This document shows positions 5,600 to 59,068 of a stretch of 64,000 bases of DNA, piece after piece (position 1 is the stretch's first letter; each line of letters starts with the position of its first letter). The notes beneath the pieces were generated by a model that was not told the origin of the DNA, did not search any database, and saw only the letters and a list, made by a program, of their open reading frames with translations. Location: positions 10,320,001 through 10,384,000 of the forward strand of contig JADLSH010000395.1 in assembly GCA_016169945.1 (NCBI GenBank). The letters run 5' to 3'. The translations under genes and the position numbers were made by a program. The DNA is from Trachythela sp. YZ-2020 (lineage: Eukaryota > Cnidaria > Anthozoa > Malacalcyonacea > Clavulariidae).

Positions 5600-6590
5600 G
5601 TGGCATACATTATATTGAGTTGTTGTACAGTTGTACTATGATACTTTTATTTGAATAATAAAGTAACCCACTTTGTGTCTTCACTATTAACCACAAACTG
5701 TACATACAAATACCACTACATTAAATAACTGTGCCTGCAAAGAAATAATTAATAAATATGCATACCCCCCTGAAATGAATGTAATTTATACAGTATGCGA
5801 AAAATACAAATCAAATAATCAACAAATGAACATGAAAATTATAAGTGCTTCCCAACAAATATTCTAAACCTTTAAAACTTCAACAAAGTCTTTGATACAT
5901 GTTTAAATTGTCGAAAAAAGCTGATATAAATTAAATAACATTCTTTAAAGAATTAAAATCTAATTTAAATAATAAAAAATATAATATAAATTTCCCACTC
6001 AATGCAATCTGCCATTTTGAATTACAAAATCCTCTCTACATGCCTACCTTGAAGACAAAATCACTGCGCCAGCAATAAGCACAAAACGGCTCAACCATGT
6101 ACAGTTTTGGCAGGCATCTCACCGTCTTTCTACTGACCAAAGTGACCTGGTGGTAACCCATGAGATGCCCACTGAGGAAGCTAGTAAAGTTGAAGTTAGA
6201 AGGCCAAATGTTAGAATAAAAGAGCATATCCCTTCAAGAAATATTTCTAACAAGCACTTCACTTCATTGAAACAAGTACTTACGTAAAATGCCAATTGTT
6301 ATCAATAATGCATGAAAATGCACACTGGGGGATAGAAAACTTTAAGTTAGACATTGCTGAATGCAAAGAACGGTCGAGGGAAGCGTTTTTTCTTTTCATT
6401 CATGATTAACAGCCTTTCTCCTAAACATAGATATTTACATTTTCTTGGTCGAAGTTCTATATGCCACCAGATGCTTAAAGATCTACTATTTCATGCTAAA
6501 CGTTTTGCTTTTCCTCTTTAAATTCCAAACATGTTTTAAAAATTTAGTTTTGTTTAATAACACCATATCTATAATCTATTATGTATAGCA
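5600..6590. other. AT-rich stretch without recognisable genes
   Basis: I see no conserved coding signal, long repeat or RNA gene here. Open frames are short and composition-driven. Confidence 0.5.
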
Positions 6591-6694
6591 TGTCTGGATG
6601 CGCATGTGTCTGAGTATTGTACCACATGCGCTTGGTGAGGGCAAGAGTATGGTGTATAAATACGAAGTCACTCGCATCTAGACTGCGTTACAAG

Positions 6695-6738
6695 CTGCAC
6701 TGACGAGCCGTTGAAAGGCGAAACATGCATGTCTGCAG
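6695..6738 (+). ncRNA. Hammerhead ribozyme, copy 1 (type I)
   Basis: Stem I is CTGCA (6695-6699) with TGCAG (6734-6738). The core CTGACGA lies at 6700-6706. Stem II is GCC/GGC (6707-6709 with 6717-6719) with a 7-nt loop. GAA lies at 6720-6722. Stem III is ACAT/ATGT (6723-6726 with 6729-6732) with a 2-nt loop, and C6733 is the predicted cleavage-site nucleotide. All conserved core bases are present. Very short stem III is typical of hammerheads in PLEs and retrozymes. Confidence 0.88.
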
Positions 6739-6976
6739 ATTTGACTATATATGCTCCTTCACTTGTGTTGTTGAGCACTCTGTGAGGTTAATTTGTGTCT
6801 AATAAGCTATAATGCAAAAGCTCACTTACCTTGTGGTTGTTTGAGCATTCTGGCCCCAAGACACTTCACACATGTCTGGATGTGCACATGTCTGAGTATT
6901 GTACCACATGCGCTTGGTGAGGGCAAGAGTATAGTGTATAAATACGAAGTCACTCGCATCTAGACTGCGTTACAAG

Positions 6977-7020
6977 CTGCACTGACGAGCCGTTGAACGG
7001 TGAAACATGCATGTCTGCAG
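6977..7020 (+). ncRNA. Hammerhead ribozyme, copy 2 (type I)
   Basis: Same fold as copy 1: stem I CTGCA/TGCAG, core CTGACGA (6982-6988), GAA (7002-7004), stem III ACAT/ATGT, cleavage nucleotide C7015. Stem II is extended: C-G, C-G, G-C and T-A pairs closed by a G.T wobble around a TGA loop. The difference from copy 1 sits in stem II while the core is unchanged, as expected for a functional RNA. Confidence 0.87.
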
Positions 7021-7359
7021 ATTTGACTGTATATATGTATATATATATATATGTTCTAATTGGTATACGCTCAATCAATTATCTCAACTGCGTTTTGTAT
7101 TTTTGTGTAAAACATTACTTATTGAGCAAAAGCAGGGGTTACTGTTAAAGTTTCAACACCATTCTAAACTGCTGTGCTCAAGCAATTCAATAGATGGTGG
7201 TAATGGTACAGGTGGTGTAGGTGGTAATGGTACAGGTGGTGTAGGTGACAGTGACCCTACTGAAGGAAAATATCATATATCACAAGAGGGCTAAAAGAAC
7301 CAAATATAAAGTCAACTGGGGGGCTTAGACTAGATGTTATCAGAGAGCATTAGAAAATA

Positions 7360-11359: not shown

Positions 11360-11835
11360 TCAGTTTTTCGTTTGACCGGCATTATCAGGTCCTCTGGGTA
11401 GTTTTGTCAGGCTGGACAACGTTTTGAGTAAATCATTATCATTGATCGGAACATTTACTAATTTATCACGTATGGCAGCCCATCTAGTTTTTGGAAGTTT
11501 AAACAATTTAAAAAATAGTATGTTCTTTGCTATTAATACACTTTCCATCCCAGATAAATTCATGCACTGGGTATTTCATCAATAGACAGACCATTTTTTG
11601 TTGACATTGAAGGACACTTCGTCTGATATAAACTTCTGTGACATGTATGACATAAATATATTTTACCGTCAGTTGCGCATTCTTTAAACTTATCACTGAC
11701 AGATCGTACTCCATTGGAATTAAGTAGTCTGTAGCATGATGAACATGGGAAAATTGGACCATTGTAAACTGACATTCTCAAATTTTGCAATTGTGTACTT
11801 TCATCTATTTTGTTTCGCTTGTTGCTGTCGTATCT
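11360..11835 (-). pseudogene. DUF6570-like region of the Helentron
   Basis: On the minus strand, FPCSSCYRLLNSNGVRSVSD and IYLCHTCHRSLYQTKCPSMS form paired CxxC motifs. These are followed in another frame by MNLSGMESVLIAKNILFFKL, LPKTRWAAIRDKLVNVPIND and LTKLPRGPDNAG. The order (Cys pairs, then the LIA...LP..R..VNVPI block ending LPR.P) is that of the domain found upstream of Helitron Rep in animals. At least one frameshift separates the two halves. Confidence 0.5.
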
Positions 11836-11836
11836 C

Positions 11837-12185
11837 GTCTGTGTTTTCACGGTCGTATTTTTGTTGTTTGGCTCGCACCTTGTATTTGTTTTCACGGTCG
11901 TATTTTTGTTGTTTGGCTCACACCTCGTCTTTGTTTTCACGGTCGTATTTTGTTGTTGTCTTTCTCGCACCTCGTCTTTGTTCTCACGGTTGTATTTTTG
12001 TTGTCTTTCTCGCACCTCGTCTTTGTTCTCACGGTTGTATTTTTCTTGTCTTTCTCGCACCTCGTCTTTGTTCTCACGGTTGTATTTTTCTTGTCTTTCT
12101 CGCACCTCGTCTTTGTTTTCACGGTTGTATTTTTGTTGTCTTTCTCACACCTTGTCTTTGTTTTCACAGTTGTATTTTTCCTGGT
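11837..12185 (-). repeat. 45-bp coding minisatellite
   Basis: About seven tandem copies of a ~45-bp unit. On the minus strand each encodes the 15-residue pattern KYNRENKDEVRERQE, a highly charged helix. One copy near 11955 has an indel that shifts the frame, so later units read NTTVKTKTRC instead. It lies between the OTU/zinc-finger part and the DUF6570-like part of the Helentron. Confidence 0.8.
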
Positions 12186-16252: not shown

Positions 16253-16586
16253 CAGGCTATGCGCGCAAATGCGTAATTCCTTTATTTAGCCGCAAGTAAG
16301 AAGAGGAAGGCCGCCATTACTGAAGATAGATATACAAAAGTGTTTTACCGATTTATTTAAATACCAGGTGGCTTCCTTGGACTTTTGGTTTGTTACAGTT
16401 TCCAACTAACCTAAAGTTATAAGAAGCTTAATGTTAAAATAACTTTCATGTTTACAACATTGAACATGTCATATTGAAACCTGTTTCTAAAATTGTACTT
16501 AACATGTTCATGGATTTACACCGCATCCCAGTACAAATACTACCTACAGCAGCATAAGTAGTATTATTGGTAGGTAGTAAATGTAT

Positions 16587-16935
16587 AATTTGCTCTAACT
16601 ATATGTTGTCGAGCACTCTTTGCGTTTCGTAGACGTAAACCTACACGTACTATTTACGCTCGTTCACTTTAGTGTTGTTGAGCACTCTGGCAAAGCTAAT
16701 GGGTGTCTACTAGCGATAATGCAATGCTCACTTCCCTTGTGGTCGTTTGAGCACTCTGGCTCCATGACACTTTGCGCATGTATAGATGCGTTGATGTCTC
16801 CGTGTTGTACCACATGCGCTTGGTGAGAGTAAGCTCATGTGTATAAATATGGTTGGCATCTTGTGCATAGACGTATACCAAGCTGCACTGACAAGGCGTT
16901 GGACGCCGAAACATGCATGTCTGCAGATTGTACTA
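16587..16935 (+). repeat. Second retrozyme-like unit, + orientation
   Basis: Shares GAGCACTC, the TTGTGGTCGTTTGAGC segment, ACCACATGCGCTTGGTGAG and the TATA-like motif with the 6.6-7.0 kb unit and ends in hammerhead copy 3. Its first ~65 bp (ATTTGCTCTAACTATATG onward) are nearly identical to the sequence directly after the right PLE copy at 33349, linking the retrozyme-like family to the PLE family. Confidence 0.65.
16883..16926 (+). ncRNA. Hammerhead ribozyme, copy 3 (core mutated)
   Basis: Stem I CTGCA/TGCAG, stem II GGCGT/ACGCC with a TGG loop, GAA, stem III ACAT/ATGT and cleavage nucleotide C16921 are all present. The core reads CTGACAA, so the invariant G8 (general acid in catalysis) is A at 16893. 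The fold should form but self-cleavage is probably lost. Confidence 0.8.
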
Positions 16936-17195
16936 TATATATAGTCAAATCTGCAGACATGCATGTTTCGCCGTTCAACGGCTCGTCAGTGCAGCTTGTA
17001 ACGCATTCTAGATGCGAGTGACTTCGTATTTATACACCATACTCTTGCCCTCACCAAGCGCATGTGGTACAATACTCAGACACATGTGCATCCAGACATG
17101 CGTGAGTGTCTTGGGGCCAGAGTGCTCAAACGACCACAAGGGAAGTGAGCTTTTGCATTATGTTGCCGAAACATGCATGTCTGCAGATTGTACTA
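16936..17195 (-). repeat. Third retrozyme-like unit, inverted
   Basis: The reverse complement of the 6.87-7.03 kb sequence: hammerhead, ATTTATACACC (TATA-like reversed), CCTCACCAAGCGCATG, CAGAGTGCTCAAACG. It forms a large inverted repeat with the + unit at 16587-16935. At 17165-17186 it runs into a half hammerhead (GAA, stem III, stem I 3' strand) in + orientation. Confidence 0.65.
16951..16994 (-). ncRNA. Hammerhead ribozyme, copy 4 (minus strand)
   Basis: On the minus strand the core CTGACGA and GAAA are intact, with stem I CTGCA/TGCAG, stem III ACAT/ATGT, and stem II GCCGT/ACGGC around a TGA loop. Compared with copy 3, the second stem II pair is C-G instead of G-C, a compensatory double change. 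It faces copy 3 across a 24-bp AT-rich spacer. Confidence 0.85.
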
Positions 17196-17268
17196 CTATA
17201 TATATATATATAGTAGTACAATCTCTGCTCTATCTATGTTTTTCAGCGTCAACGCCTCGTCAGTGCAG
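17187..17268 (-). ncRNA. Decayed hammerhead copy beside an AT palindrome
   Basis: 17187-17222 is a palindrome centred on (AT)n with arms ATTGTACTACTATA. Next to it the minus strand holds CTGCA, the core CTGACGA and stem II GCGT/ACGC followed by GAAA, but stem III and the 3' strand of stem I have diverged. Probably a dead fifth copy. Confidence 0.5.
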
Positions 17269-17274
17269 CTTGGT

Positions 17275-17640
17275 ATACATTGTTTTCTTTCAATGTCCAA
17301 ATATATTTTGAAAGTTCTTTGTCGTTTGCGTGCTTTTTATGCTGAAAAGATTTAGTGTGGTTGGCCAATCGCTCTTTGAATGTGGTTGCAGTCATGACAA
17401 TGTAATGTATTTCAAAATTTTGTATTTTGAAAGAAAAAAACAAGAATTGTTTACTCACAAAAGAGCTGAAATAATTTCATGGTGTCGTCATCGTAACAAA
17501 TTTTTTGTGTAAACAACGTAAACAAAGCCATGCATGCACACATTGTCTCCCACATACACCCCCACGTTCCGGCAGGAAGCATATAAGCGTTCATGTCTTT
17601 CAATACTTTGTCACTGCCTGATGATTCGTAAGGCCCATGT
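17275..17640. mobile_element. Penelope-like element fragment with internal inversion
   Basis: 17275-17405 on the minus strand encodes MTATTFKERLANHTKSFQHK and ELSKYIWTLKENN, the GIY-YIG endonuclease part of the PLE at 30-33 kb. From about 17409 the orientation flips: the + strand carries the C-terminal end and 3' UTR (TTGAAAGAAAAAAACAAG, GCATGCACACATTGTCTCC, GGCAGGAAGCATATAAGC) to about 17640. The copy thus joins two pieces of one element tail to tail. Confidence 0.7.
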
Positions 17641-22240: not shown

Positions 22241-22505
22241 GCGCTCTAGAAATCTCCTACGATTCTGACAATCCACGAACATTTAAAACTATATGCACCA
22301 AGTGTAATACTGCTCGAACTCTGGCTCAGCCTCTGAAGTGTTGCTATTAGTTATGTTGATACTATTTTATGTTTGTATGTCTTAATTTCGGGTCGCAGGA
22401 TTTGGCTCACGCTGTTGCGGTCACCCTGCCTATAGTCGTATGTCTTGTTTTGTCATACTGTATGCTGTTATTGTGTTATGTATTGTAATATTGGCGAATC
22501 TAATA
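22241..22505 (+). mobile_element. LINE 3' tail inserted in the helicase gene
   Basis: Plus-oriented, non-helicase sequence ending in AATAAATAAAATAAAAAAATAAA-like A-rich DNA at 22500-22525 breaks the helicase frame between LEKAWID and LGLTYVAISR. It contains the GGTCGCAGGATTTGGCTC segment and a terminal tail typical of 5'-truncated CR1/L2-type LINEs. No clear target duplication was found. The family is not identified. Confidence 0.55.
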
Positions 22506-23208
22506 AATAAAATAAAAAAATAAATCAATCCATGCCTTTTCTAATGTTAAACCTTGACTTTTATGAATTGTTAGGGCCCAGGCAAGTCTAAGAGGTATTT
22601 GTTGTCTTTCATATACTGAATTACATGCATTTATACTGGCTGTTATCGGTGGAATTTGAACACAATTTGGTATAGTAGAGATCGAAGGACCAGTATAGTC
22701 ATCAAATTTAACAATTACAGCAATAGGTAAATCTGGAGGTTGATGAATAGTGGCGTAAATTATATCCACAACAACTCCTGTTGTTCCATTACAAAGACCA
22801 ACTGATGGCCATAGATTAATTGTTAACATAACACGAGCACCATTACAAATATACAGTACTGCCTGTAAACCAAGCATATCTTGAGAGTTAATACACTTGG
22901 CCTTGTTACTTGAATGTGTGGCATGTATTGTCGCAACTGGTTTTTGTAAATTGACTAAGTGTTCATAATTGTACTTTGCTACTTGCTCATTACTGTAATA
23001 TAACCTTGTGGCATTTTCAAAATAATCAAGATTTTTAACACAACTCGGCTGTCTAGTCAACAGAAGGTTCCAGTCATCACAAGTGGAATCTCCATTTCGA
23101 AGTCGTGATAAAAGTTCTCTAAATATGGCCTGATCAGATTGAGAACCATTTACTCTCTGATTACGTTTAAGAATTACAACTTTTTCAAACATCATATAAG
23201 CATAATAA

Positions 23209-24698
23209 TCAATAAATATCATACCATGGATAAATCATCTCATCAACAGCAAATCCTTCCCCTCGCCAGCTATCTCAAAAAGAGACTCCAGCCCTTGGGA
23301 CACTGGATGGCGGCTTAAAAGGAGGAAGGAATACACTGAAACAAGAAAATATATTTTATTATAAGTGCACAACAATACTGTTTAAATAACCAGATGTAAC
23401 TAAAAAAAGCCTAAATATATGTCAATTATAGAACAAAGCGTTCAGTGAGACATAGGCGTAAGCATAAAACACTAAATTCAAATATAAAGAGTCGTTTATC
23501 ACAATACAAGTAATTCAAACATAAAAAATCGTGGACTTATATAGTGTAGTGCACCGGAAATAGAAGCATATCTAATGATGATATGATCACATGATAATGA
23601 CGCCAAGCGTTAAAGGCACCTATCAATACAATAAACTAATTAAAAGTCAAATGACGTGATGTTTAAAAGGAAACCTTCTAGAACAATATTTGTGAATATT
23701 CGCGTGTCGAAAAACCTCAACGAATACAAATATATATCAATTAAGATATGACTTTAACCAGAACAAAACTACAAGGTTTTGTACTCCAATCTATGTACGC
23801 TAAACAATAAATGAAATAACAATCAATAAATATCATACCATGGATAAATCATCTCATCAACAGCAAATCCTTCCCCTCGCCAGCTATCTCAAAAAGAGAC
23901 TCCAGCCCTTGGGACACTGGATGGCGGCTTAAAAGGAGGAAGGAATACACTGAAACAAGAAAATATATTTTATTATAAGTGCACCACAATACTGTTTAAA
24001 TAACCAGATGTAACTAAAAAAAGCCTAAATATATATGCTTCAATTAAGCGTTCAGTAAGGTCTAGTGAGTAAGCATAAAACTACTAAGCCTAAATATATG
24101 TCAATTATAGAACGGCGTTCATTGAGGCATGGCGTAACAGCATAAAACACTAAATTCAAATATAAAGTGGATTTATCTATTCAATAAAAGTGCAATTCAA
24201 CAATATAAAAAATCGTGGACTTATATAGTGTAGTGCACCGGAAATAGAAGCATATCTAATGATGATATGATCACATGATAATGACGCCAAGCGTTAAAGG
24301 CACCTATCAATACAATAAACTAATTAAAAGTCAAATGACGTGTTGTGCACTTATAATAAAATATATTTTCTTGTTTCAGTGTATTCCTTCCTCCTTTTAA
24401 GCCGCCATCCAGTGTCCCAAGGGCTGGAGTCTCTTTTTGAGATAGCTGAACTAGGGAAGGATTTGCTGTTGATGAGATGATTTATGCATGGTATGATATT
24501 TATTGATTGTTATTTCATTTATTGTTTAGCGTACATAGATTGGAGTACAAAACCTTGTAGTTTTGTTCTGGTTAAAGTCATATCTTAATTGATATATATT
24601 TGTATTCGTTGAGGTTTTTCGACACGCGAATATTCACAAATATTGTTCTAGAAGGTTTCCTTTTAAACATCACGTCATTTGACTTTTAATTAGTTTAT
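23209..24698. mobile_element. 1.49-kb repeat insertion with 13-bp target duplication
   Basis: TATAAGCATAATA occurs at 23196-23208 and again at 24699-24711; removing the insert and one copy restores the helicase frame (GYYAY-MMFEKV). Inside are a partial unit (23209-23630), a full unit (about 23631-24314) in the same orientation, and an inverted partial unit (24343-24698). The inverted part is the reverse complement of about 23629-23985. There is no coding capacity. Repeat class unknown. Confidence 0.75.
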
Positions 24699-25190
24699 TA
24701 TAAGCATAATATCCTTGTTGCCCTAAACTATTCGATGGGTTGGAGTGGTACAATGGTTTGTCACAAACCGGAGGCAATTGACCAGGATCACCAATCAAAA
24801 TAATTGATTTACCACCAAACAACTGATCTTTGACTCCCGTGGCTTGTCTACAACGCCTATCTATCCAACCCATTGTGGTTTGACCAAGCATGGAGTATTC
24901 ATCTATGAGTATATAATCAATAGTTGACATTTTATCTTGCAACATGCAAATACTTTGGCCTGACAAATCTTTTTGAGGCATACAAGCAACTGGAAGTTTT
25001 AAAAAGGAATGAATTGTCACACCATTGATAAGGTAGGCTGCTTTACTAGTTGTTGCTGTTACAACACATCTATTTTTCAAGAAACTATGAATTGCATGTA
25101 TGAGGTAGCTTTTCCCAGTCCCTCCAAAACCAATCATGTCATATGCATTATTTTGCTCCTCATTTAAACTGTTTGTGTCAATTTGATAAT

Positions 25191-25715
25191 CTAATTTATT
25201 AACTGGAACAGCCTGGTCCTTTTAATCCAATTCGGCATTTCCCCTATTTGCTGTTCAGTATACTTTGTACTATCTAATTGCCAGTTGCATGAGTTTTGGG
25301 CAAGGTTTTGTGAATTGAAATGGCTGTTGGAATTATGGTAATCTGAAAGTATCATCCATTCCTCCTGAATATGTTGTTCATTTTCTACATGTTGATCGTT
25401 AGAAAGTTCAATGTTATGTAAAACATTTTGAAGCCTTTCTGCCCATTGCGGAACATGTTCTTTGGCAAATGAAGTATGCCATGCTATAATAAAAGTACTG
25501 TCACTTGTTTCATCACTTCCCCATGCATCATGCTCAGAATCTTTCCATGGTTTGTATCTAAGTAATTGGTATTTGCAAAACAGAGCATAATTGTCACCTT
25601 TCGGATTCGATGAATAGTTTGGAAATATTCTAGGGACCACATTGCTGGTTTGTTTTACAAAGGAATTCTTCTTAAGTGTATATTTAGTAGTAAAATCAAC
25701 AAGATTGACACTCAT
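25191..25715 (-). CDS. Helitron spacer domain between Rep and helicase
   Basis: Encodes MSVNLVDFTTKYTLKKNSFV, VVPRIFPNYSSNPKGDNYAL and FCKYQLLRYKPWKDSEHDAW. The V.R.FP.YS.NP...Y..FCKYQL..YKPW pattern is conserved between Rep and helicase in OTU-bearing Helitrons and recurs in the second copy at 33900-34283. Open for 174 codons. Role unknown. Confidence 0.6.
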   Translation of the reverse strand: MSVNLVDFTTKYTLKKNSFVKQTSNVVPRIFPNYSSNPKGDNYALFCKYQLLRYKPWKDSEHDAWGSDETSDSTFIIAWHTSFAKEHVPQWAERLQNVLHNIELSNDQHVENEQHIQEEWMILSDYHNSNSHFNSQNLAQNSCNWQLDSTKYTEQQIGEMPNWIKRTRLFQLIN

Positions 25716-25769
25716 TATATCAGGAAAGACATTTTTGAATTTAATACGATTTGCATATACATCTAATAA

Positions 25770-26660
25770 TTAATTCTTTGTGCAAAGTTCTGTGTCTACA
25801 ACATTAACTTCTACCCTACGTGAGCCGTTTAAGTTCACTGGCAATACTTGAAATGATGTGCTATGTAATTTTAATGACAGTAATAGATGCATTGTTTCTT
25901 GGGCACTGAAATCTCTAACACCAAATGTTCTAATTAAAACTTTTTTCATAGGTTTTTGGGGATCAGAATCTGGCTTTACATTTTTCATAATTGCATTGAA
26001 AGTGTCTTTTAACATTGGTGATCTCGGTTCACCTTTGGCAGCATACTTACAGAGATTACTCTATGCATGCATGATAATCAATGATAACTTGGATATCACA
26101 ATTACCTCTCCACCCCTGAAGTTGAATTATTTGATGGTTATTCAGTCTAGGATCATTCCTTTTGGTTACTATATTAGCTTTATATTGAACAGATTTGTCT
26201 TTAGTGTGAATTTGTTCAAAATTTAGAATTGTTTTTGAACAGAGATCAAAAGGATATTTAAAGCGACAGTGGAGATTTTCGTTATCTTTGCTGTGCTTCA
26301 GACAATATTTTGTGCTACAGTGTGTGTGACGCTGAACTGTGTTTAGAAGATCTGCATAATCACTATCAATATTGCTAACATCCTGGTAGCGTTTTTTACA
26401 TGGATGTATACCAGGCTTTGTCCATGCATTGTTCTGAGGTGGAAGTGGGTTCCAAGTTGAAACAATATTGTCAACATAATCACATATTTGCCTGGTAGCT
26501 TTCTTACCCTGTTCAATATCAAGTAAGATGTTTTCGTCCCTGCTAGTATCTGCACATTTTTCAGCTAAAAACCCTTTTAAAGCAATTTCAGAAAGATTAC
26601 ATGGCCGTGGGTCACTTTTCAATTTGGCAGTGCCATGACAATGGATGCTACCTCTTGCTT
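25770..26660 (-). pseudogene. HUH Rep endonuclease of the Helitron
   Basis: After a 1-nt shift near 26661 the frame reads [20 protein letters not shown], whose HCHG is the HUH metal motif. It continues [12 protein letters not shown]...[20 protein letters not shown] and [13 protein letters not shown] to about 26056, where a stop and frame change occur before NLCKYAAKGEPRSPMLKDTF. In related copies the last block is preceded by a Tyr (RYMAKYAAKG at 34.6 kb); here the first of the two catalytic Tyr positions is damaged. Rep nicks and joins DNA strands. Confidence 0.75.
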
Positions 26661-27331
26661 GAAATGAAATTCATACCTATGCCATTCCGCATCTAAGGTA
26701 TCATACAACCAGTGCTTAAGAAAACTTTCTAAACGTTTAGTGAAAAACCAGTCAACTAAATGTGGATTGTTAATAACATTTTTTCGTCTTTCTTCTGACG
26801 TTGGATTAGGAGAGGAAGGGTTCAAAAGCATGTGCAGCTCAGGCAAGTTCATGTCTGCGGAGGAAAAAGTAAAGAAAATAGTAGGAGCCCCCTTACAAGC
26901 AATAATTGCCTTTAAATCCTGTCGAACTTTGTACCAGTATGCAGAACTTCCTGTGATGTTGCTTACATATCTAGAAAGTTTTGACATGAAAGCACCTGAG
27001 CTGTCATTAGATGCCATATCTCGAAGTTCATTTATTGTAAGATGAGATTCTTCGGGATTTTGTTTGAGAAAAATAGCACTTTGCTGTAACATTCTTTTTC
27101 TCTGAATCATATCAAGGGCCCAATATGAAAATCTAGGGTGAGATGCAAATCTATAGATCCACTTTTCATCAACATAGCAAATTTTATGAGATGTTGTATT
27201 TTATTAGATAGGCTGATTTCTCTAAATAATGCAGGGTTAGTTGGATCACCTTTCCCATCTGGAAACAAGCATGGAAATGCCATTGTAGCCAAAAAAGGTG
27301 TGGTATATTCATCAAGGGTCAATTTTAGCAC
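26619..27331 (-). CDS. Helitron-like N-terminal domain
   Basis: 27331-27107 reads [20 protein letters not shown], the AFP.LFP.G.GD block. 27110-26619 continues [40 protein letters not shown] and [12 protein letters not shown], then [20 protein letters not shown]. This is the Helitron_like_N domain before Rep. The two halves are in different frames near 27110. Confidence 0.7.
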
Positions 27332-27576
27332 CTAATCTGTTTTGTATTGCATCATGCTCAAGTTGTTCATTGTTACTCTGGGGAAGAAAATAACTTGTTT
27401 CTGTTTTCTCATCAAATACATTGTCTTCATTATTGTCAACAGTTTCATGCAGAACATGTTGATCACCACTTTCGCTAATCACTTCATCACTAATTTCCTC
27501 TGGATCTGATTCTGTTTCAATAACTTGTAGGTTATGTGGAATGCCATTTACTGGCAAATTGTCAAGCAAATGTATG

Positions 27577-28044
27577 TCAATTTTTTACATCATGGTAGTG
27601 AGGGTTATGTTTTATCAACCATTGCAATGCTTGCTCAACTTTATTCTTCCTTACAACAATATCTTTGAATGTGTTATCTTTGCCTTTCATGGTTACCACA
27701 ACTACAGGTATATCTTTAGGACACCGTGGCAATGATTTATCTAGGTCTGTAATTTTTGGAGGCAAATTTATGCAATGCCCAGAATAACCTCTTTGACCCC
27801 CTGGTTTGATATAAACTTTCATAATGGGGAGAGCTCGGGCAATTAACATTTCTTCTATTTGTGTTAGACCTTGTAATACCTCAGGAACACAAGAAGGAAT
27901 CATAAAATTATCTGAAGAAAACAATTTTGGAGATTGCTTATCTAAAGAGCACCTACAGCATATATAACTGGAGGGGGATTTGGGTTTTGTTTTTAAAGGC
28001 CATGCTTCTTGACATATTCTACACTGATAAGCCGTGGAATTCAT
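27577..28044 (-). CDS. DUF6570 domain of the Helitron
   Basis: Open for 155 codons: [88 protein letters not shown]. Two Cys pairs and the [13 protein letters not shown] block define the domain that precedes Rep in many animal Helitrons. Biochemical role unknown. The following 27569-27330 frame is an acidic linker. Confidence 0.75.
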
Positions 28045-28057
28045 TTACTTGTGAAAC

Positions 28058-28600
28058 TTATTGATATTTGTGCCAGCATTTTTTATTGCTATAGTTATTT
28101 GATTTACAAATCTTTGTTTTGAGTTGCTCATGTAATATTGGTCTTCCATTGGACATGCATGCAGAATCAACCGAAACCAGGTAATCAAGCTTACCAATAT
28201 TTGTGTCACCATTTTTCAAAACATTGGCATGGCTATAATTTTCAGTCAGTTTGGATTCAGTTGCCTTTTGTTGCTCAAGCATGTCTGGTTTTAAAACTTT
28301 GGTGATTTTAAGTTTTTTCGTAACAGGCATAGCACCGTCTGAATCACTTGCTTGTTCCCCTATTTTCCTTTTAATACTGAAGCAGTTACTTGGTGGAGGT
28401 TTTGTGCCTGCACATACATAAAGAACAATATCATAATGTACACCATTACTATGACGAATGTAGATTGCACCAACATTTTTTGGGCAAGAGCCACCTAGCA
28501 TTGATCTAGAAAATTTGTGCCACTTATACAAACTACTAACTTGAGTATAAACATAGATATCTGTGTCTAGCAATGATGCCGAAGCGTAGCCTAAAACCAC
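28058..28600 (-). CDS. OTU protease, C-terminal half
   Basis: Begins after an acceptor-like TTTTAG at about 28586 with GYASASLLDTDIYVYTQVSS, YKWHKFSRSML and IYIRHSNGVHYDIVLYV. The H-x-N-G-x-H-Y-D block holds the OTU catalytic histidine. A Lys-rich linker follows. The catalytic Cys half would lie upstream (above 28.6 kb) but was not found. OTU proteases cut ubiquitin chains. Confidence 0.65.
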   Translation of the reverse strand: MVLGYASASLLDTDIYVYTQVSSLYKWHKFSRSMLGGSCPKNVGAIYIRHSNGVHYDIVLYVCAGTKPPPSNCFSIKRKIGEQASDSDGAMPVTKKLKITKVLKPDMLEQQKATESKLTENYSHANVLKNGDTNIGKLDYLVSVDSACMSNGRPILHEQLKTKICKSNNYSNKKCWHKYQ

Positions 28601-29700: not shown

Positions 29701-29959
29701 TTTTTGTTTGTTTTTCGGTTCTACAGACGCCATTTTGCGATGTGAGAAAAAAGATAGATAAATTCGACGCATGCATAATTTATTTTGGGTCCGCGGACCA
29801 GCTTTTAGGCAGGCCGACACTACCTCTATAGGAGGTCTTGGCCCGCCTAAAATTTTGGGTACGCATACCTTTAATTTTGTGTTTACAACAAAAAAATCAG
29901 GAGTGCAGTGCCCAAAACGTACGTACCTATATATATATAGATTTTCGCTTACCTCAAAA

Positions 29960-30012
29960 CTTGTCTGCAACAGGCTGTTTCATCTGTAAAGAATCATCAG
30001 GCAGTTTACAAG
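29960..30012 (-). ncRNA. Second-type hammerhead motif in left PLE 3' region
   Basis: On the minus strand: stem I CTGC/GCAG plus an outer CTTGT/ACAAG helix, core CTGATGA, GAAA, and stem III ACA/TGT with cleavage nucleotide T. Stem II is weak (TCT/AGA with a T.T mismatch at its base). All invariant core bases fit. Differs from the right copy by one base missing in the stem II loop. Confidence 0.65.
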
Positions 30013-30180
30013 TATCGAAAGAAATGACCGCTTATATGCTTCCAGCCGGGGCGTGGGGGTGTGTGTGGGAGACAATGTGTGCATGCATGGTTTGTTTGTG
30101 TTGTTTACGCGAAATTTGTTATGATGACGACATCGTGAAATTATTTCAGCTCTTTTGTTGAGTAAACAATCCTTTTTTTT

Positions 30181-31386
30181 TTATTTCAAAATACAAAATT
30201 TTTCTTCTAAACATAAATTGCATCGTTTTGATCCTCCCGTATACGAAATAGAATGTTTTAAAATTTGCCAATTAATACTGAAATCCTTATTGTTTTCTTT
30301 CAATGTCCAAATATATTTCGAAAGTTCTGTGTCAATTGCATGCTTTTTATGCTGAAAAAATTTAATGTGGTTGGCCAATCGCTCTTTGAATGTGGTTGCA
30401 GTCATGCCAATGTAATTTTTGATCGTGTTTGTGTTGCTTACTGTGACCGTTGCTTTGTATACTATGTCCCTAGTCATGCATTGTTTTTGAAGCGGGCAAA
30501 CAGTGTTTTCTCTACAACTGCAATTGGTAGTGTCCCTCTCCTGTGGCTTGTTATTTCTAGATATACGTGCATTGTGTTTAGTGATTACTGACTTAATATT
30601 GTTCATGCAGCTATAACTTACTTTAACTGTATTTCTGTTAAAAATTTTATGTAGCTTGTGGTGCGGTGGAAAATGTTTGTCAATTAGACTAAGGAAATTA
30701 CGTCCTATATTTGTGTTAACACTCTTGCTAAATGGTGGGTTGAACCAAATGATGTTGCGTTGCCTGTTCCTGCGTTGTTTTTGCGGTGTGTGCTGAGTGT
30801 AGCTAAGTTCATGATTAAAGTTGCTATGCCTAAGTGCGTTCTGATATATGGGTGCAGATTCCTGAAAAGTTTGCTCATCTGATGAAAGAAGTGCGATGCG
30901 CTTGTTAATTGATGCAGGTAGTTGCCTTGTGATGCTCGGTGGGTGATTAGAGTGCATATTTATGTATAGTGGATCGTCATTGGGCTTCCTATAGGGCCAA
31001 TATTTTCCATTGTTAAGGTCGAAAGTTACATCTAAAAAGTTTACTATACATAAATTTGATTCGGCGGTAATTTTTAGGTCAAACTGCTCGAAAATTTTGT
31101 GGAGGTCTTTCCTTGTTTTGTCTGCTAAACGTTCTGATTTACTTTTTATAATAGCCAAACCGTCATCTCTATATAGGCCGATGCTTTCTTTGCCAAATTT
31201 TTTACTCAGGTGGTTTAAAATGAAAAGGCCTACTAACTCGCAAATTTCTGCGCTGTCGAAACTGCCCATGGTAACGTCAAACAAACTCTTGCTATCTTTT
31301 TTTATCCATGAAATTCCGGTATTGAAAAGGAGAGATTTTCTAGCGTGTTTTATTATTGAAATATCGTTTTTAGGTATAGTAGCCAA
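30181..31386 (-). CDS. PLE reverse transcriptase (C-terminal part) and GIY-YIG endonuclease
   Basis: RT catalytic motif is GLYRDDGLAIIKS, with the YxDD form usual for Penelope. Thumb-like IVNFLDVTFDLNNGKYWPYR and DDPLYINMHSNHPPS follow, then KTVCPLQKQC-type cysteines (CSCRENTVCPLQKQC), then the GIY-YIG signature VYKATV...KNYIGMTATTFKERLANH with catalytic Arg, and finally a CNLCLEEKFC tail. The 5' end falls just after the position of motif A in the right copy. Open and little decayed. Confidence 0.85.
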   Translation of the reverse strand: MATIPKNDISIIKHARKSLLFNTGISWIKKDSKSLFDVTMGSFDSAEICELVGLFILNHLSKKFGKESIGLYRDDGLAIIKSKSERLADKTRKDLHKIFEQFDLKITAESNLCIVNFLDVTFDLNNGKYWPYRKPNDDPLYINMHSNHPPSITRQLPASINKRIALLSSDEQTFQESAPIYQNALRHSNFNHELSYTQHTPQKQRRNRQRNIIWFNPPFSKSVNTNIGRNFLSLIDKHFPPHHKLHKIFNRNTVKVSYSCMNNIKSVITKHNARISRNNKPQERDTTNCSCRENTVCPLQKQCMTRDIVYKATVTVSNTNTIKNYIGMTATTFKERLANHIKFFQHKKHAIDTELSKYIWTLKENNKDFSINWQILKHSISYTGGSKRCNLCLEEKFCILK

Positions 31387-31411
31387 GAAAATTAATTAGT
31401 CTCCCAACATT

Positions 31412-33140
31412 TTCATTTTTGCTGACAAAACTAGGAATATTTATGAAACCTCGCTCGACACATACAACAAGCTCTTACATGACAACATCACAAAAACATA
31501 TAAGCATGGATCCGAGGACTCTATAGATGAAATTGATTCAGAACTAAAAAACATTTCGAACAATTTAGGAATAGGCGACAAAATTGAAAAACGCGAAGCA
31601 TTTATATCTTTAAAAGATCACAAAGAAAATTTCGAAAACAATCCAAAATGTCGATTAATTAATCCCGCTAAAAGCGAATCCGGAAAAAATAAGCAAAGTT
31701 ATTTTGGACAAAATTTAATTCTAATTTGAGACAAAAACTGGATTTAAATCAATGGAGGAATACAAAACAAGTTATTCAGTGGTTTGGCAATATAAAAGAT
31801 AAGGACAGACGCAGTTTTATTTCGTTTGACATTGTCGATTTCTACCCATCCATTTCTGAAAAACTATTGGACCAAGCTTTATGTCAAATTTGGCTACTAT
31901 ACCTAAAAACGATATTTCAACAATAAAACACGCTAGAAAATCTCTCCTTTTCAATACCGGAATTTCATGGATAAAAAAAGATAGCAAGAGTTTGTTTGAC
32001 TTACCATGGGCAGTTTCGACGGCGCAGAAATTTGCGAGTTAGTAGGCCTTTTCATTTTAAACCACCTGAGTAAAAAATTTGGCAAAGAAAGCATCGGCCT
32101 ATATAGAGATGACGGTTTGGCTATTATAAAAAGTAAATCAGCAAGTTTAGCAGACAAAACAAGGAAAGACCTCCACAAAATTTTCGAGCAGTTTGACCTA
32201 AAAATTACCGCCGAATCAAATTTACGTATAGCAAACTTTTTAGATGTAGCTTTCGACCTTAACAATGGAAAATATAGGCCCTATAGGAAGCCCAATGACG
32301 ATCCACTATACATAAATATGCACTCTAATCACCCACCGAGCATCACAAGGCAACTACCTGCATTAATTAACAAGCGCATCGCACTGCTTTCATCAGATGA
32401 GCAAACTTTTCAGGAATCTGCACCCATATATCAGAACGCACTTAGGCATAGCAACTTTAATCATGAACTTAGCTACACTCAGCACACACCGCAAAAAACA
32501 ACGCAGGAATAGACAACGCAACATCATTTGGTTCAACCCACCATTTAGCAAGAGTGTTAGCACAAACATGGGACGTAATTTCCTTAGTCTAATTGACAAG
32601 CATTTTCCACCGCACCACAAGCTACATAAAATTTTTAACAGAAATACAGTTAAAGTAAGCTATAGCTGCATGAACAATATTAAGTCAGTAATCACTAAAC
32701 ACAATGCACGCATATCTAGAAATAACAAGCCACAGGAGAGGGACACTACCAATTGCAGTTGTAGAAAAAACACCATTTGCCCGCTTCAAAAACAATGCAT
32801 GACTAGGGACATAGTATACAAAGCAACAGTCACAGTAAGCAACACAAACACAAACACAATAAAAAATTACATTGGCATGACTGCAACCACATTCAAAGAG
32901 CGATTGGCCAACCACACTAAATCTTTTCAGCATAAAAAGCATGCAAATGACACGGAACTTTCGAAATATATTTGGACATTGAAAGAAAACAATAAGGATT
33001 TCAGTATTAATTGGCAAATTTTAAAACATTCTATTTCGTATACAGGAGGATCAAAACGATGCAATTTATGTTTAGAAGAAAAAAATTGTATTTTGAAAGA
33101 AAAAAACAAGGATTGTTTACTCAACAAAGAGCTGAAATAA
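31412..33140 (+). pseudogene. PLE reverse transcriptase and GIY-YIG endonuclease, frameshifted
   Basis: Readable blocks: FIFADKTRNIYETSLDTYNK, AFISLKDHKENFENNPKCRL (fingers), SFISFDIVDFYPSISEK (motif A, catalytic Asp), then after frame changes MGSFDGAEICELVGLFILNH, LYRDDGLAIIKS (motif C), and from 32397 NIIWFNPPFSKSVSTNMGRN and YIGMTATTFKERLANHTKSF (GIY-YIG) to a stop at 33140. A one-base deletion at about 32003 and a further shift at about 32500 break it. Closely related to the left copy. Confidence 0.85.
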
Positions 33141-33269
33141 TTTCACGATGTCGTCATCGTAAATAATTTCTCGTAAACAACGCAAACAAAGCCATGCATG
33201 CACACATTGTCTCCCACACACACCCCCACGCCCCGGCAGGAAGCATATAAGCGGTCATTTCTTTCGATA

Positions 33270-33323
33270 CTTGTAAACTGCCTGATGATTCTTTTACAGA
33301 TGAAACAGCCTGTTGCAGACAAG
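33270..33323 (+). ncRNA. Second-type hammerhead motif in right PLE 3' region
   Basis: CTTGT (33270-33274) and CTGC (33278-33281) pair with ACAAG (33319-33323) and GCAG (33315-33318), separated by an AAA bulge. The core CTGATGA lies at 33282-33288, GAA at 33302-33304, stem III is ACA/TGT (33305-33307 with 33311-33313), and cleavage is predicted after T33314. Stem II is only TCT/AGA above a T.T mismatch, so activity is uncertain. The mirrored partner lies at 29960-30012. Confidence 0.68.
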
Positions 33324-33899
33324 TTTTGAGGTAAGCGAAAATCTATAATTTGCTCTAACTATATGTTGTCGAGCACTCTTTGCGTTTCGTAGACCTAAAC
33401 CTACACGTATATATACATATATATATACATCGATTGGTGCAGTTTTGATTAGAATTTTGCCATAGGTTTAATCTGGAAATTCTGTTTCTTTAATAAAACT
33501 GACCCTGCCAATGCAACACTTGGCAAGAAACTGCATGTTTTCATGTTTTCATGTTTACAGTTACTGCAAGTTAAAAGAAAGGAATAGGGGCTCTTGCTTT
33601 CCACTCTTCTAATAACTACTGCAAATTGAATTTGGCAATGTTTTCCTCATCACATTTCCTCAAAATTGATGGCTTTGATCTGGAACAAAGATGGTTAACT
33701 TTGCTAGATAGCAAATTTAGAACCATCTTTTCTGTATCCTTGGTGACCAAGTTCCTCAGCATCCTTTCTCTGTTTATATATCTATCCTGGAGCTTCCTTT
33801 AGAAAATCTGTAGGTACAGCCCTTACCGCTTCACTGTTTGACATCCCATTACCTGCTACATCGTAATGTTGGTTGATTCTGCACAACAACATCCAATCA

Positions 33900-43812: not shown

Positions 43813-45703
43813 CAGGGTTGCCAAGTTCGGGATTTTGTCCCGAGATCTCGGGATTTTAAAAAGCAGTTGGGAACTTTTTGGGATTTTTGTTTTAAAAATT
43901 CATGCTCGGGATTTTTTTGGGATTTTTGAGAACAGAAAGTTCGAGAATTAAAAATTGTAAAATTATTTTAAATTGAAATAAACAATAATATAATAACAAT
44001 TTTCAAAAAATCCAGCGTTCGTCTGCTGGCATCCTATTGAACTTTATGTTACAAATGTTATACTAGATCAGTTTATCCATAGACTATCCAGAAGACAGGG
44101 ACTGGAAACGCCATTGTTTTGCGTGTGCTGTCCGTGATACGGCCTGTAGAACAACAATGTCAATGGCGAGTGTTTTTGTAGTTCGAAATAATACGCATGC
44201 ATTCAAAGGTGATCTTTGGCTTTGGTAATCCCAATAGAACTTTGAAAAGGCGATAGCTGCATTGACATTTATATTTTTGGTCAATATATATAAATGGAAA
44301 ACCCTGAAATATATTCAAAGTAAAGTTACAGGGTTTGAAGTAGGTGTGTACTGCGACAACAACAATGGCTAGTTTTTGTAGTTCAAAATAATACGCATGC
44401 ACTCAAAGGTGATTTTTTGCTTTGTTAAAGCCAATAGAAGTTTGAAATAGCGATAGCTGCATTCACATTTCTATTTTTGTTCAACATATATAGATAAGAA
44501 ACCCTGAAATATATTTAAAATTAAGTTACAGGGTTTGAAGTAAGTGTGTACAGAAACAACAACAAGCGGCTATTCTGTAGTTCAAAATAATACGCATGCA
44601 TTCAAAGGTGATTTTTTGCTTTATTAAATCCAGGAGAACTTTGAAAAAGCGATAGTTGCATCGTCATTTCTATTCTTGTTTAAAATATGTAAATGAGAAG
44701 TCTTGAAATTTATTTGAAGTGAAGTTACAGGGTTTGAAGTAGGTGCATACACTAACAACAACAATGGCGACATTTTTTTAGTCAAAAAGGGAACGCACGC
44801 ATTCAATGGTGCTTTTTAGCTTTGTTAAACCATCAAAAAGTTTGAAAAGTCGATAGTTGCATCGACATTTTTATTCTTGTTTAAAATATGTAAATGTGAA
44901 GTCCTGAAATATATATAAAGTGAAGTTACAGGGTTTGAAGTGAGGACAACATAAATTGCGATCCTCTCGTAGTCGTGCAAACAGAAGAGTCAAAAAACCT
45001 CGTTTGTACAAGATTGGCATATCGCACAAAGTTGTAACTACCCTATTTGCATTAACATTGCATATGAGATGATAAATATATGTTGTAAAAGACAAGTGAT
45101 AGCCTTCTCGTCAAGTTCCAGGGTTTGAAAGGAAACTACCTATGTACGGATGCTTTTTACGTGCGCCATTTTGATGTACATGCTACGACAAAACTGGATT
45201 ATGATTAATATTTATAGTCAAAATGGAAAAATAAAAACGCACTTACCTTGGCAATAACTCTGTGCTTAAGGGCACATAAAAAAATCAATATTAATGAGAT
45301 GTACTTGGATTTAAATAGGCCAAATTACCAAAGGATTCACTTTCTTTTTTGTTCTGATTATGGCTGGTTGCCGTGGCAACTGACAATTGCTACGTGATAA
45401 AAGCGCATCACGGATGTCGCGTCAGCAACATTAGAGCTTTGCCCAGCGTTTCCAGTCCCTGTCTTCTGGATAGTCTATGGTTTATCCAACTGAAGTATGT
45501 TTCATTTATACAACATGATGTATTACGCATATTTAGAGAAACCGGCCCGATCTCTTAAATCTCTTTTTCAGAGTATGCCCGTTCGCAGGTTGGGGTCTTT
45601 GGGGACTGGGAACGAAAGTGGGAACATTGGGATTTTTGGGGGAATCTCGGGATATTTGGGAAGCTTAGTTGGGAATTTCACACATTTGCAGTTGGCAACC
45701 CTG
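43813..45703. mobile_element. Non-autonomous hAT element with exact TIRs and TSD
   Basis: CAGGGTTGCCAA at 43813-43824 and its reverse complement TTGGCAACCCTG at 45692-45703 form perfect 12-bp TIRs. TATGGTCA flanks both sides (43805-43812 and 45704-45711), the 8-bp TSD expected for hAT. Subterminal GGGATTTTTGGG-like motifs occur near both ends. The 1.9-kb interior has no transposase and holds a ~200-bp satellite. Confidence 0.92.
44100..45000. repeat. ~200-bp satellite inside the hAT element
   Basis: At least four diverged copies; ACGCATGCATTCAAAGGTGA-type anchors start near 44193, 44393, 44592 and 44792. Each unit also contains GCGATAG.TGCAT, a TGAAATATAT segment and GTTACAGGGTTTGAAGT. Short ORFs in it are repeat artefacts. 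Confidence 0.85.
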
Positions 45704-54480: not shown

Positions 54481-55345
54481 CGAAGGCGGGAATTAAGTCG
54501 AGATGTCACAATAGCAAGTGTAAGAGTCGATATGGGACCACCATTGGGTGCCTGACGGAGGATTTCTTCGAGTTCGGCGATTGCCTTCTCGGCGACTGGG
54601 TTTTTGTTGATGTTTTTAACTCGTCCAATCTCTAAGGATATGTTGACACGTTTAAGCATTGGATCGTCTCGTAAAGCAATAAAACCAGGGGCCGGGTCGA
54701 CTCTGACGACGGCAAGTGGACCTTCCATGGAGTGTAACTCGCTACATAAACGACCAAGGGCGTCGCGGAGTGTATTAGCTTTCGCCGTGGAATAATGGAC
54801 GTGGAAGTGAAGGAGGTAGTGGTTTCGCGAACAACAATAATAGCTTGTTTACACCGTCTAAGTACATCGGCGGCAAACGATACTCCAACGACCTTGGGTG
54901 GTTCCTCGGTGCTATGTTGTACAGCTTGTGGTGGGAGTTTTTTCAGAGAGGTACACATATGACAGGTGTCACTCACATGAGCAATAGCACTTTGCATGTC
55001 TAGGGCGTAGAATGTACGTTTCATCATCATTTGGTGCTTTGATGGATGGTCAAGTTTAATATGTAAGGCTGTTACGAGACCGTCGAGGACGGAGCGGGAA
55101 CGACGATCAACTCGGTAGATGGTGATAAAGGGTCGGTCCTGCGAACTACTAGTAAACCATCTTTAGCTATAGTAAGGACGTTTAGATACCGTTTGACGTC
55201 CTTTATGTTTGTCAATTTCTTAGAGGGATGTGTTCCTTGCTTGAGGTGGGCGTGTGTTCTGCGTAGGTCGGGACACTCGGACTGGATTTGGATCCAGGAG
55301 GAACGGGTTGTGAAAGGTACCCGCGACTGGTTGTGGATGTCTTGG
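54480..55345 (-). pseudogene. Integrase zinc and catalytic domains of the LTR element
   Basis: 55340-55085 holds the N-terminal segment; 55030-54632 reads RTFYALDMQSAIAHVSDTCH and MCTSLKKLPPQ, the second half of the HHCC site, then GVSFAADVLRRCKQAIIVVR. A frame change near 54830-54800 leads to VVRVDPAPGFIALRDDPMLK and NKNPVAEKAIAELEEILRQA, with candidate second Asp and Glu. The domain is recognisable but frameshifted. Confidence 0.65.
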
Positions 55346-55409
55346 GCAGAAGTGGTCCGAACAACAGAGTCTTCTGTGGTCGAGATGAAGCTACAAACCT
55401 GACAACGTG

Positions 55410-56009
55410 GTTCGCTACACTCTGGTGCATTTTGACTGGAAAAATCTGAAGGTACGTTGGCTGAGCCTGCGAGGTGTCGTATGTCAACTTGGTACCGACT
55501 GACAACAGATAAAAATGATGTGACGCGCGGGCTCGCAGAAAATTCACCACGGCGTAGCTTGTCAATGGCTTGAACGCATGGCTTGCTATCGGTGAGTATG
55601 CAAGCGTTGTGTTGGGACTGGATTATAAAAGGGCTAAAGTGCTTCACCGAGGTGGCGATGCCTAATGCTTCGATTTCACATGGTAGCCAGTTCACTTGGT
55701 GTTTTCTTAACTTGGCACTGAAGAAGCCGGCTAGGAGAAGGGTTTGGTGATGCGATACATATAAGGTACCTCCAATACCTCGTTTGGTTACGGACCCATC
55801 AGTAATCCACAGCTTGTCAGACGGCTTTGGGAGTGTGATAGACTTGCTACTGGACAGAGAGGTCTGTGCTAACTTAAACTGTTGAGACAAAGTTTCTGAC
55901 CACTTTATCTTGTCACGTGATTGTTGTCCTGCGATGGAACTCTCTAATGGTGCGATGACGTGTGCACACTGCGGAAGAACGTGTCCGAGGACTTTGTAAG
56001 CTCCTATAA
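55410..56009 (-). CDS. RNase H domain of the LTR element
   Basis: Contains [20 protein letters not shown] (first Asp), [20 protein letters not shown] (Glu), [20 protein letters not shown] (second Asp) and [16 protein letters not shown] (last Asp). This is the usual DEDD order, placed just upstream of the integrase. The frame is open here. Confidence 0.75.
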
Positions 56010-56670
56010 AGGAGCTGGCATGCCCATTGCAGATCGGGTGTAAACTCGAACGCCACGGAATGGGGTTACAACCCCACAATACTTCATGGACTTTTTGGCA
56101 AGGGGGATTTGGTAAAAGGCACTGGTAAGATCGGACACAATGATGTACTTCCACTTGGCAATTGTTCGAAGGGTAGAGTCCACATCTGGTAATAGAGATG
56201 GTTGCGGTTTGCTGTATCGACCAACATCTGCGAATGCTGTTACTAGGCGATGGCCACCGTTTGATGAGAAACGATGGGTTGAGGTACTCCACAGTTATAC
56301 CAAGGTTTTCAGGAGGCTGGAAGATGCCTTGCAACTCTAGGTCATCAAATTTTTCTTGAAGCTCAACCATCTTGTTTGGGGCATACTGGGGAAGTCTGCC
56401 TTTTCGTTGTGGTGGTTGCACCGGGCCCATGTTTACAACCGCTTCAAAGGGACCAGCAGCACCATTGTAACCAGAGATGTTCTTATCGAAAACATCATCA
56501 TACTCTTGGATGACACGGCTAAACTCTGTGCGCACACTCTCTGGTAGGATGGAGTCTGGGTCTAGTTGGACAGACGAGGAGTGTTGTTGGGGTGTAGGGG
56601 GGGATGCTGCCGGGGAACTGGCGGATGGTTCACCATGATTTTCAACTGTATCTGGGATGTACGTAGGCAC
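56010..56670 (-). pseudogene. Reverse transcriptase, internally deleted
   Basis: Open part reads EFSRVIQEYDDVFDKNISGY, PPQRKGRLPQYAPNKMVELQ and [15 protein letters not shown]. In the next frame [31 protein letters not shown] (motif A) and [10 protein letters not shown] follow. At about 56010-56022 the sequence jumps directly to [13 protein letters not shown], a segment normally well downstream. RT motif C and the thumb are therefore missing, so the enzyme is dead. Confidence 0.7.
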
Positions 56671-56679
56671 AACCTGACA

Positions 56680-56935
56680 GAGGACGGAGCGGGAACGACG
56701 ATCAACTCGGTAGATGGTGATAAAGGGTCGGTCCTGCGAACTACTAGTAAACCATCTTTAGCTATAGTAAGGACGTTTAGATACCGTTTGACGTCCTTTA
56801 TGTTTGTCAATTTCTTAGAGGGATGTGTTCCTTGCTTGAGGTGGGTGTGTGTTCTGCGTAGGTCGGGACACTCGGACTGGATTTGGATCCGGGAGGAACG
56901 GGTTGTGAAAGGTACCCGCGACTGGTTGTGGATGT
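56680..56935 (-). repeat. Duplicated 256-bp integrase segment between protease and RT
   Basis: Matches 55085-55340 with two differences seen by eye. On the minus strand it encodes the IN N-terminal part ([46 protein letters not shown]). This copy is out of place upstream of the RT, where it breaks the pol frame. Confidence 0.9.
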
Positions 56936-56999
56936 TGTGGTCGTGTCCGGGGGATGCGTTTTGGTTGGAGGGTTTCATTGGGTATGCGAATCCTTCTTG

Positions 57000-57917: not shown

Positions 57918-57979
57918 GGAGGGAATCTAATGCCTGTGAAATTTCAGGTTTGAGGGACGCAATGGTTTGGGACCGAAGA

Positions 57980-58608: not shown

Positions 58609-58819
58609 GTTGATGAGCGAGACAACGCACTAACTACACAAACGATTAACTTACGAAGTGCTCCGACGCTAGAAGAGTTCTATTATTTAAAATCGCAGAC
58701 GAAGTGAAAGTCGGCTCGTTTTTACCTTGTTTTGGTGAGAGAAACTTTCTTCTGAATGGTAAATTATTATCTCCGCTGTGTTAGAGATCGAAGGAAAGTG
58801 AAATAACTCACTGCCACCA

Positions 58820-59068
58820 CGCCAGTGAAGAAGAAGGACTCGTAAATAACGAACGATAAAATAATATATTGTACAAACAAAACGTCTACAATATCGAGAG
58901 GGTGAGAGAGATCTCGCGTGAGCCGGAAGTTACATAACAAGTCTCTATAATACTTGGAGTAAGAATGGTTCTCAATAGTCAACGATATGCCATATACGGC
59001 AAACAATATAATGTCACTAATATGCCATATATGGCAAACTATAATTACACTAACAATATGCCAGATAT
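58820..59068 (-). repeat. LTR, 5' copy for the minus-strand element
   Basis: Partner of 53527-53775. On its outer side it abuts the (TTA)n tail of the LINE at 59069. On its inner side the minus strand reads TGGTGGCAGTGAG, a candidate primer-binding site. Confidence 0.85.

Follow-up and report, generated by a model that had tools for sequence, protein, structure and literature searches.

Judged from sequence evidence in a single genome, the array at 6588-7028 of the stretch analysed here is a copy of a metazoan-type retrozyme without long terminal repeats (non-LTR retrozyme), a new family of a known class (family A), and it was probably copied in trans by the reverse transcriptase (RT)/GIY-YIG endonuclease of a Penelope-like element (PLE) of the same genome. 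The stretch (the window) comprises 64,000 nucleotides (nt) of Trachythela sp. YZ-2020 (assembly GCA_016169945.1, contig JADLSH010000395.1, positions 10,320,001 to 10,384,000). A fixed 3' end, a (TA)n target, a hairpin and mixed insertions were observed, and retrozyme and PLE shared the signal, the target and the mixed insertions, two of which were clean. The Penelope link was absent from the initial annotation and is the more informative part. The features of the array are as follows (a slash marks the boundary).

6588..7028, plus strand: family A retrozyme array, 1.6 units, 5' end probably lost by later deletion
6655..6662 (second copy 6937-6944), plus strand: TATAAATA, 5' of hammerhead 1, putative promoter
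6695..6738, plus strand: type I hammerhead 1, predicted cut after 6733 (motif scan)
6977..7020, plus strand: type I hammerhead 2, predicted cut after 7015 (motif scan)
6734..7015, plus strand: 282-nt monomer releasable by the two cuts, predicted circular RNA
6746..6747 (second copy 7028/7029), plus strand: fixed array 3'-end boundary GACT/ATAT, 13 nt past the cut, putative RT start
6753..6781, plus strand: hairpin 1, GCTC...GAGC-ACTCT, 6 nt past the boundary
6820..6851, plus strand: hairpin 2, GCTC...GAGC-ATTCT
7030..7051, no strand: (TA)-rich tract adjoining the array 3' end

The initial annotation had proposed two type I hammerheads framing one monomer, and a motif scan (CUGANGA, stem II, GAAA, stem III, UH, stem I) recovered both at the claimed sites, with cores starting at 6700 and 6982 and predicted cuts 282 nt apart. 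The TATA-like motif that it placed 5' of each hammerhead could also be read from the sequence. A third intact hammerhead was revealed by the scan on the minus strand of the window (core at 16989), and no motif occurred in 100 first-order random windows with the same dinucleotide make-up; the two hammerheads are not chance occurrences. The Rfam check went the other way, as no family attained its gathering score anywhere in the window, and in the hammerhead rows of the local Rfam scan RAGATH-1 scored 22.7 bits (cut-off 56.3), HH9 21.1 bits (cut-off 52) and the type III hammerhead 13.8 bits (cut-off 48.5). In unconstrained minimum-energy folds of 55-nt pieces stem I formed and the full hammerhead did not. 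Since the Rfam models stayed below their cut-offs and the free fold lacked the whole ribozyme, hammerhead activity is a prediction. Helix III could be read as 2 base pairs (bp) with a palindromic tetraloop (CA-UGCA-UG), a form mentioned for invertebrate retrozymes in a passage of PMC7229834.

The animal retrozyme layout that had been suggested was supported by the type I hammerheads with short helix III, the tandem units, the dispersed copies and the lack of any open reading frame (ORF) of at least 110 amino acids (ATG/GTG/TTG starts) overlapping 6588-7028. A direct repeat of 164 nt (6589-6752 and 6871-7034, 96% identity, spacing 282) represents the tandem units themselves. A 9-bp inverted repeat (GCGCATGTG/CACATGCGC, window 6600-6631) was found within the retrozyme, 5' of the TATA motif. 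Contig C360 (loci L002 and L010) is a second copy of the window region, 94-96% identical and probably the other haplotype. The insertion is shared with C360, with flanks of the same identity, and about 60 nt more array is retained there on the 5' side, so the left end of the window array is probably the product of later deletion. An 8-bp target duplication noted by eye (6580-6587/7034-7041) was dropped, because the C360 copy shows that the left junction is not original. Target-site duplications, which in metazoan retrozymes exceed 4 bp where they occur, are blurred by TA tracts flanking the arrays on both sides, and the 5' junction of the window copy is deletion-like.

At least 186 matches to the 282-nt monomer A were present in the 578-Mb genome (best 40 of 540 candidates scored), in arrays of one to about 14 units, the longest from C33:107882 onward. 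The units differed by 0.86% on average (median 0.37%) between arrays, which makes family A young (109 full units in 49 arrays, a sample that favours close copies); median divergence within arrays was 0.36%. Family C (window unit 16649-16942) was 79% identical to A and had its own tandem arrays in the genome. In the units of A and C, 86 hammerhead motif matches were found (65 loci). Families D, E, F and G, with other hammerheads, were encountered in the fetched loci, and further hairpin-bearing families with differing hammerhead-like cores or PLE-like ends were seen in L105, L108, L111-L116 and L120. Some family A copies (L013 1062, L014 1290 and L087) begin about 20 nt beyond the TATA motif, at rotated position 209-210, as though from a transcription start. 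The ribozyme pattern had no match in the viral and genome contigs scanned, and the ribozyme-hairpin spacing occurred in 36 stretches of viral contigs, near a rough chance expectation.

The 3' ends of the arrays were fixed. Among arrays with a visible 3' end in loci L001-L103, 65 of 74 in family A and 32 of 34 in family C broke off at one and the same base, right after GACT or TACT; in A this point lies 13 nt beyond the ribozyme cut. Eleven arrays were exceptions. A TA run of at least 8 lay within the 32-nt frame round the terminal base in 63/65 A and 26/32 C arrays, and the same test was passed by 544 of 63,968 window positions (0.85%). The arrays thus show one fixed 3' end and variable 5' ends, as a circle model would give. 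The 5' ends of A arrays concentrate near hairpins, a pattern which TA microhomology could also produce.

The PLE of the window lies at 29936-33408, carries a C-terminal GIY-YIG endonuclease, and occurs in tandem or inverted copies with an optional tail.

29936..31386, minus strand: PLE-1, 5'-truncated, ORF 30181-31386, ends at the short 3' site against (TA)n
30184..30519, minus strand: GIY-YIG endonuclease domain of PLE-1
31395..33408, plus strand: PLE-2, head-to-head with PLE-1, ends with the tail against (TA)n
33278..33318, plus strand: minimal hammerhead-like motif of the PLE, core CTGATGA...GAAA from 33282 (by eye)
33343..33344, plus strand: PLE 3'-end boundary 1, AAATC/TATA (boundary 2, the tail end, at 33408/33409)
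33352..33379, plus strand: PLE hairpin, GCTC...GAGC-ACTCT, 8 nt past boundary 1

A YRDD motif, by our own reading a candidate sign of a telomerase-like reverse transcriptase, was nearly invariant (90% or more) in an alignment of 12 sequences. The whole PLE ORF gave a poor structure model (pLDDT, the predicted local distance difference test, of 51), with which a fold search found no significant match, and the ORF had no sequence match in PDB. The view that the PLE is without any hammerhead was overturned by the minimal motif, in which a U.U mismatch opens stem II (by eye). Like the retrozymes, PLE copies terminate at fixed sites, AAATC or, with the tail, CACGT. A TA run followed directly in 31 of 35 junctions without the tail and 18 of 22 with it (distinct junction sequences, 120 loci); in two additional tails the sequence continues into a further copy, and by eye this also accounts for two of the misses.

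What the ends have in common is a hairpin. Where a tandem copy reveals the sequence past the fixed base, AT-rich letters are followed by GCTC...GAGC-ACTCT. The distance from boundary to hairpin was 6 nt in A and C (C by eye), 8 and 6 nt at PLE sites 1 and 2, and 6-8 nt in D (two variants), E and G (by eye); in family F the hairpin was 3' of the ribozyme and a boundary-fixing array end was not seen. With the loop left free and the outer stem fixed, the pattern GCTC-N(10-20)-GAGCACTCT had 8,199 occurrences in the genome; the reversed control had 52. The inner stems beat 2,000 of 2,000 shuffles (10 loop groups from 37 distinct sequences among the matches listed, in the first contigs). In 27 distinct rows, which included two PLE site-2 hairpins, 90.7% of cells were paired and 34 cells were changed on both sides; covariation was 0.420 against 0.149, with 0 of 500 shuffles (which ignore the relatedness of the sequences) as high, and it was lost on sliding the partner. 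A hammerhead core pattern lay at most 140 nt upstream of 312 of 416 hairpins, many of which are copies of A, C or PLE, compared with 7, 6 and 23 in the three other placements; random positions at the same loci gave 369 of 4,000.

Retrozyme and PLE sequences were also joined within single insertions. Head-to-head pairs, with 5' ends meeting, comprised 39 PLE/PLE, 1 PLE/A (L080), 1 PLE/C (L028) and 3 A/C cases in 120 loci, two of the three A/C pairs being haplotype copies of a single event. L080 is clean, with a 90-nt PLE arm abutting a 787-nt family A array without a gap. Less clear PLE/retrozyme contacts (L034 and L014) were excluded from the clean count. Tail-to-tail junctions were found as 28 PLE/retrozyme, 12 retrozyme/retrozyme and 6 PLE/PLE cases, haplotype copies included. 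In the window itself, adjoining pieces of retrozyme and PLE lie at 16583-17627.

16583..16648, plus strand: PLE tail segment with hairpin 16592-16619, joined to unit C
16649..16942, plus strand: retrozyme family C unit, hammerhead core CTGACAA
16937..17161, minus strand: retrozyme family A copy with the intact hammerhead motif (core at 16989)
17165..17203, plus strand: family C fragment, head-to-head with the family A copy
17206..17278, minus strand: family C ribozyme end (unit positions 225-294), same-sense fusion to PLE coding sequence
17279..17406, minus strand: PLE ORF piece, homologous to 32866-32993, second half of the fusion
17414..17627, plus strand: PLE 3' piece, head-to-head with the PLE ORF piece 17279-17406

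The hammerhead of the family C unit is probably dead, because its core reads CTGACAA. The ribozyme end at 17206-17278 continues without a gap and in the same sense into PLE sequence from mid-ORF. This junction would be explained if the enzyme had switched templates, from retrozyme RNA to PLE RNA; a later deletion is a possible alternative.

Several observations weigh against copying by the PLE enzyme. The comparison was made in sequences of one genome, and the fractions of loci are not genome-wide, since loci were selected for their resemblance to A, C or the PLE tail (best 40 of 540, 1,067 and 1,244 candidates). Only two PLE/retrozyme head-to-head pairs are clean, and the one in L028 has a retrozyme arm measuring only about 12-14 nt. 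Where PLE and retrozyme join in the same sense, the junction can stem from a nested insertion into a TA tract, as in L067, whose reading as a template jump was dropped. Pfam reverse-transcriptase profiles had no match to the PLE ORF. For the hairpin, counts of varying pairs and of pair types were not clearly above shuffles (58 and 67 of 500 as high), one of the 10 loop groups had an inner stem of only 2 bp, pairing in the A- and C-type loops is out of register, and hairpin 1 was absent from the minimum-energy fold of the circle. The outer stem offers no evidence, because it was fixed by the search pattern, apart from two GCAC/GTGC rows from PLE site 2. In 20 regions with varied hairpin types the hammerhead core was upstream of only 14 of 25 hairpins (3, 1 and 4 elsewhere), and the upstream test considered the core letters with stems ignored.

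Copying by the PLE enzyme could proceed as follows. Tandem units would be transcribed, the hammerheads would cleave the RNA to 282-nt monomers, and a host ligase may circularise some of these, as inferred from published retrozymes. The PLE protein would then bind the hairpin GCUC...GAGC-ACUCU and cut a (TA)n tract, whose TA end would prime reverse transcription at the fixed base 6-8 nt upstream of the hairpin. Repeated laps round the circle would yield arrays of tandem units that share their 3' end but differ at the 5' end. For the PLE, the same downstream hairpin would be provided by the tandem arrangement, and as both broken ends can prime, some insertions would receive a PLE arm and a retrozyme arm. 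The fixed end would thus be the RT start, and circles or uncut multimers the putative templates; useful templates should be uncut or re-closed RNA, because a cut linear monomer has the start only 13 nt from its 5' end. A lizard PLE starts internally, cuts AT-rich DNA and requires RNA beyond the start site, and its ribozyme mutants still inserted (PMC11167929). By analogy, this agrees with a recognition element placed beyond the start, and with a ribozyme that would serve circle formation and not reverse transcription directly.

A wider reading, to which we incline by a narrow balance, is that the GCUC-stem-GAGC-ACUCU hairpin is a general template-recognition signal of the PLE lineage, parasitised by several circular-RNA retrozyme families which show it just past the RT start. 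On this view the RNA would have to be circularised: once cut, a linear monomer carries the start signal at its 5' end, and a closed circle would be an endless template, which would explain the tandem arrays.

Three other explanations were considered. Retrozymes could be what internal deletion or recombination left of the terminal repeats of PLEs, carried along passively by PLEs and not copied as independent RNAs; the order of ribozyme, boundary and hairpin is indeed identical in PLE and retrozyme, and a 2024 review, in the part drawn on here, proposes the origin of retrozymes by PLE reduction (PMC11722881). Such an origin is compatible with copying by the PLE enzyme, whereas passive spread is not, and it is unlikely in view of the absence of any BLAST match (1e-4) between monomers A and C and the PLE body beyond the tail segment, the dispersal of arrays that have TA flanks and fixed 3' ends of their own, and the 0.86% mean difference of A units between the 49 sampled arrays, close copies being favoured. 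Somewhat less probable still, an ordinary long interspersed nuclear element (LINE) or other reverse transcriptase could move the retrozymes, with the (TA)n preference a coincidence. An ORF matching RVT_1 is present in the window (59944-61101), and LINEs are named as candidates in a passage of PMC7229834, but the arrays end at a fixed internal site against TA and not in a poly(A) tail, the hairpin is common to retrozymes and PLE ends, and the mixed head-to-head pairs carry PLE arms. A satellite-DNA nature of the arrays, with unequal crossing-over or rolling-circle DNA as the means of spread and hammerheads as passengers, is very improbable, given that on many contigs most ends show the single fixed 3' base and flanking TA, even though arrays reach about 14 units (C33:107882 onward) and median divergence is nearly equal within and between them.

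Elsewhere in the window, several minus-strand ORFs at 22500-28600, two with PIF1-helicase-type Pfam matches, have a Helitron-type look; ORFs matching RNase H-type and RVT_1 profiles at 55072-61101 are remains of other retrotransposons, and an ORF at 17990-18649 matches the DDE_Tnp_4 transposase. A 200-bp unit forms a tandem array at 44172-44941 (3.8 copies, 83% matches), and a 45-bp repeat (7.6 copies) lies at 11834-12179 within overlapping ORFs of both strands.

Among known systems, the element is most readily compared with the metazoan non-LTR retrozymes of Cervera and de la Pena 2020 (PMC7229834), with which, as far as the part of that paper used here describes them, it shares type I hammerheads with short helix III, tandem units (282 bp, within the published range of 170-400), many dispersed copies, no long ORF and PLEs in the same genome. 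PLEs are named there as a strong candidate mobiliser, from shared features (common hammerheads and tandem copies) and co-existence. Here the pointers to the mobiliser are the fixed 3' end, the covarying hairpin and the targets common to both elements, and the mixed insertions; the RNA circle is a prediction. The window PLE resembles endonuclease-bearing PLEs (PMC11167929, PMC3846280) in its C-terminal GIY-YIG domain, tandem copies, optional 3' tail, head-to-head inverted copies, AT-rich targets and minimal hammerhead-like motif, whereas the retrozyme encodes no protein. The lizard PLE starts within an AC-rich stem-loop, whereas here the hairpin is 6-8 nt beyond the putative start. The long terminal repeat (LTR) retrozymes of plants share the hammerhead-framed monomer (PMC4918200), but they have type III hammerheads in LTRs with a primer-binding site and polypurine tract and are thought to use Gypsy machinery (passages of PMC7229834 and PMC7761336).

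A 2020 review, in the portion concerned, describes metazoan retrozymes as without a conserved motif from which the mobilising element could be deduced (PMC7761336). In the literature searched, no report was found of a motif common to PLE and retrozyme ends. The shared hairpin is a candidate for such a motif, and, being covarying and at a fixed distance from the array end, it is a concrete signal that can be mutated. The proposed model also offers a reason why self-cutting elements would need circular RNA, and how a single PLE could feed several small non-coding families.
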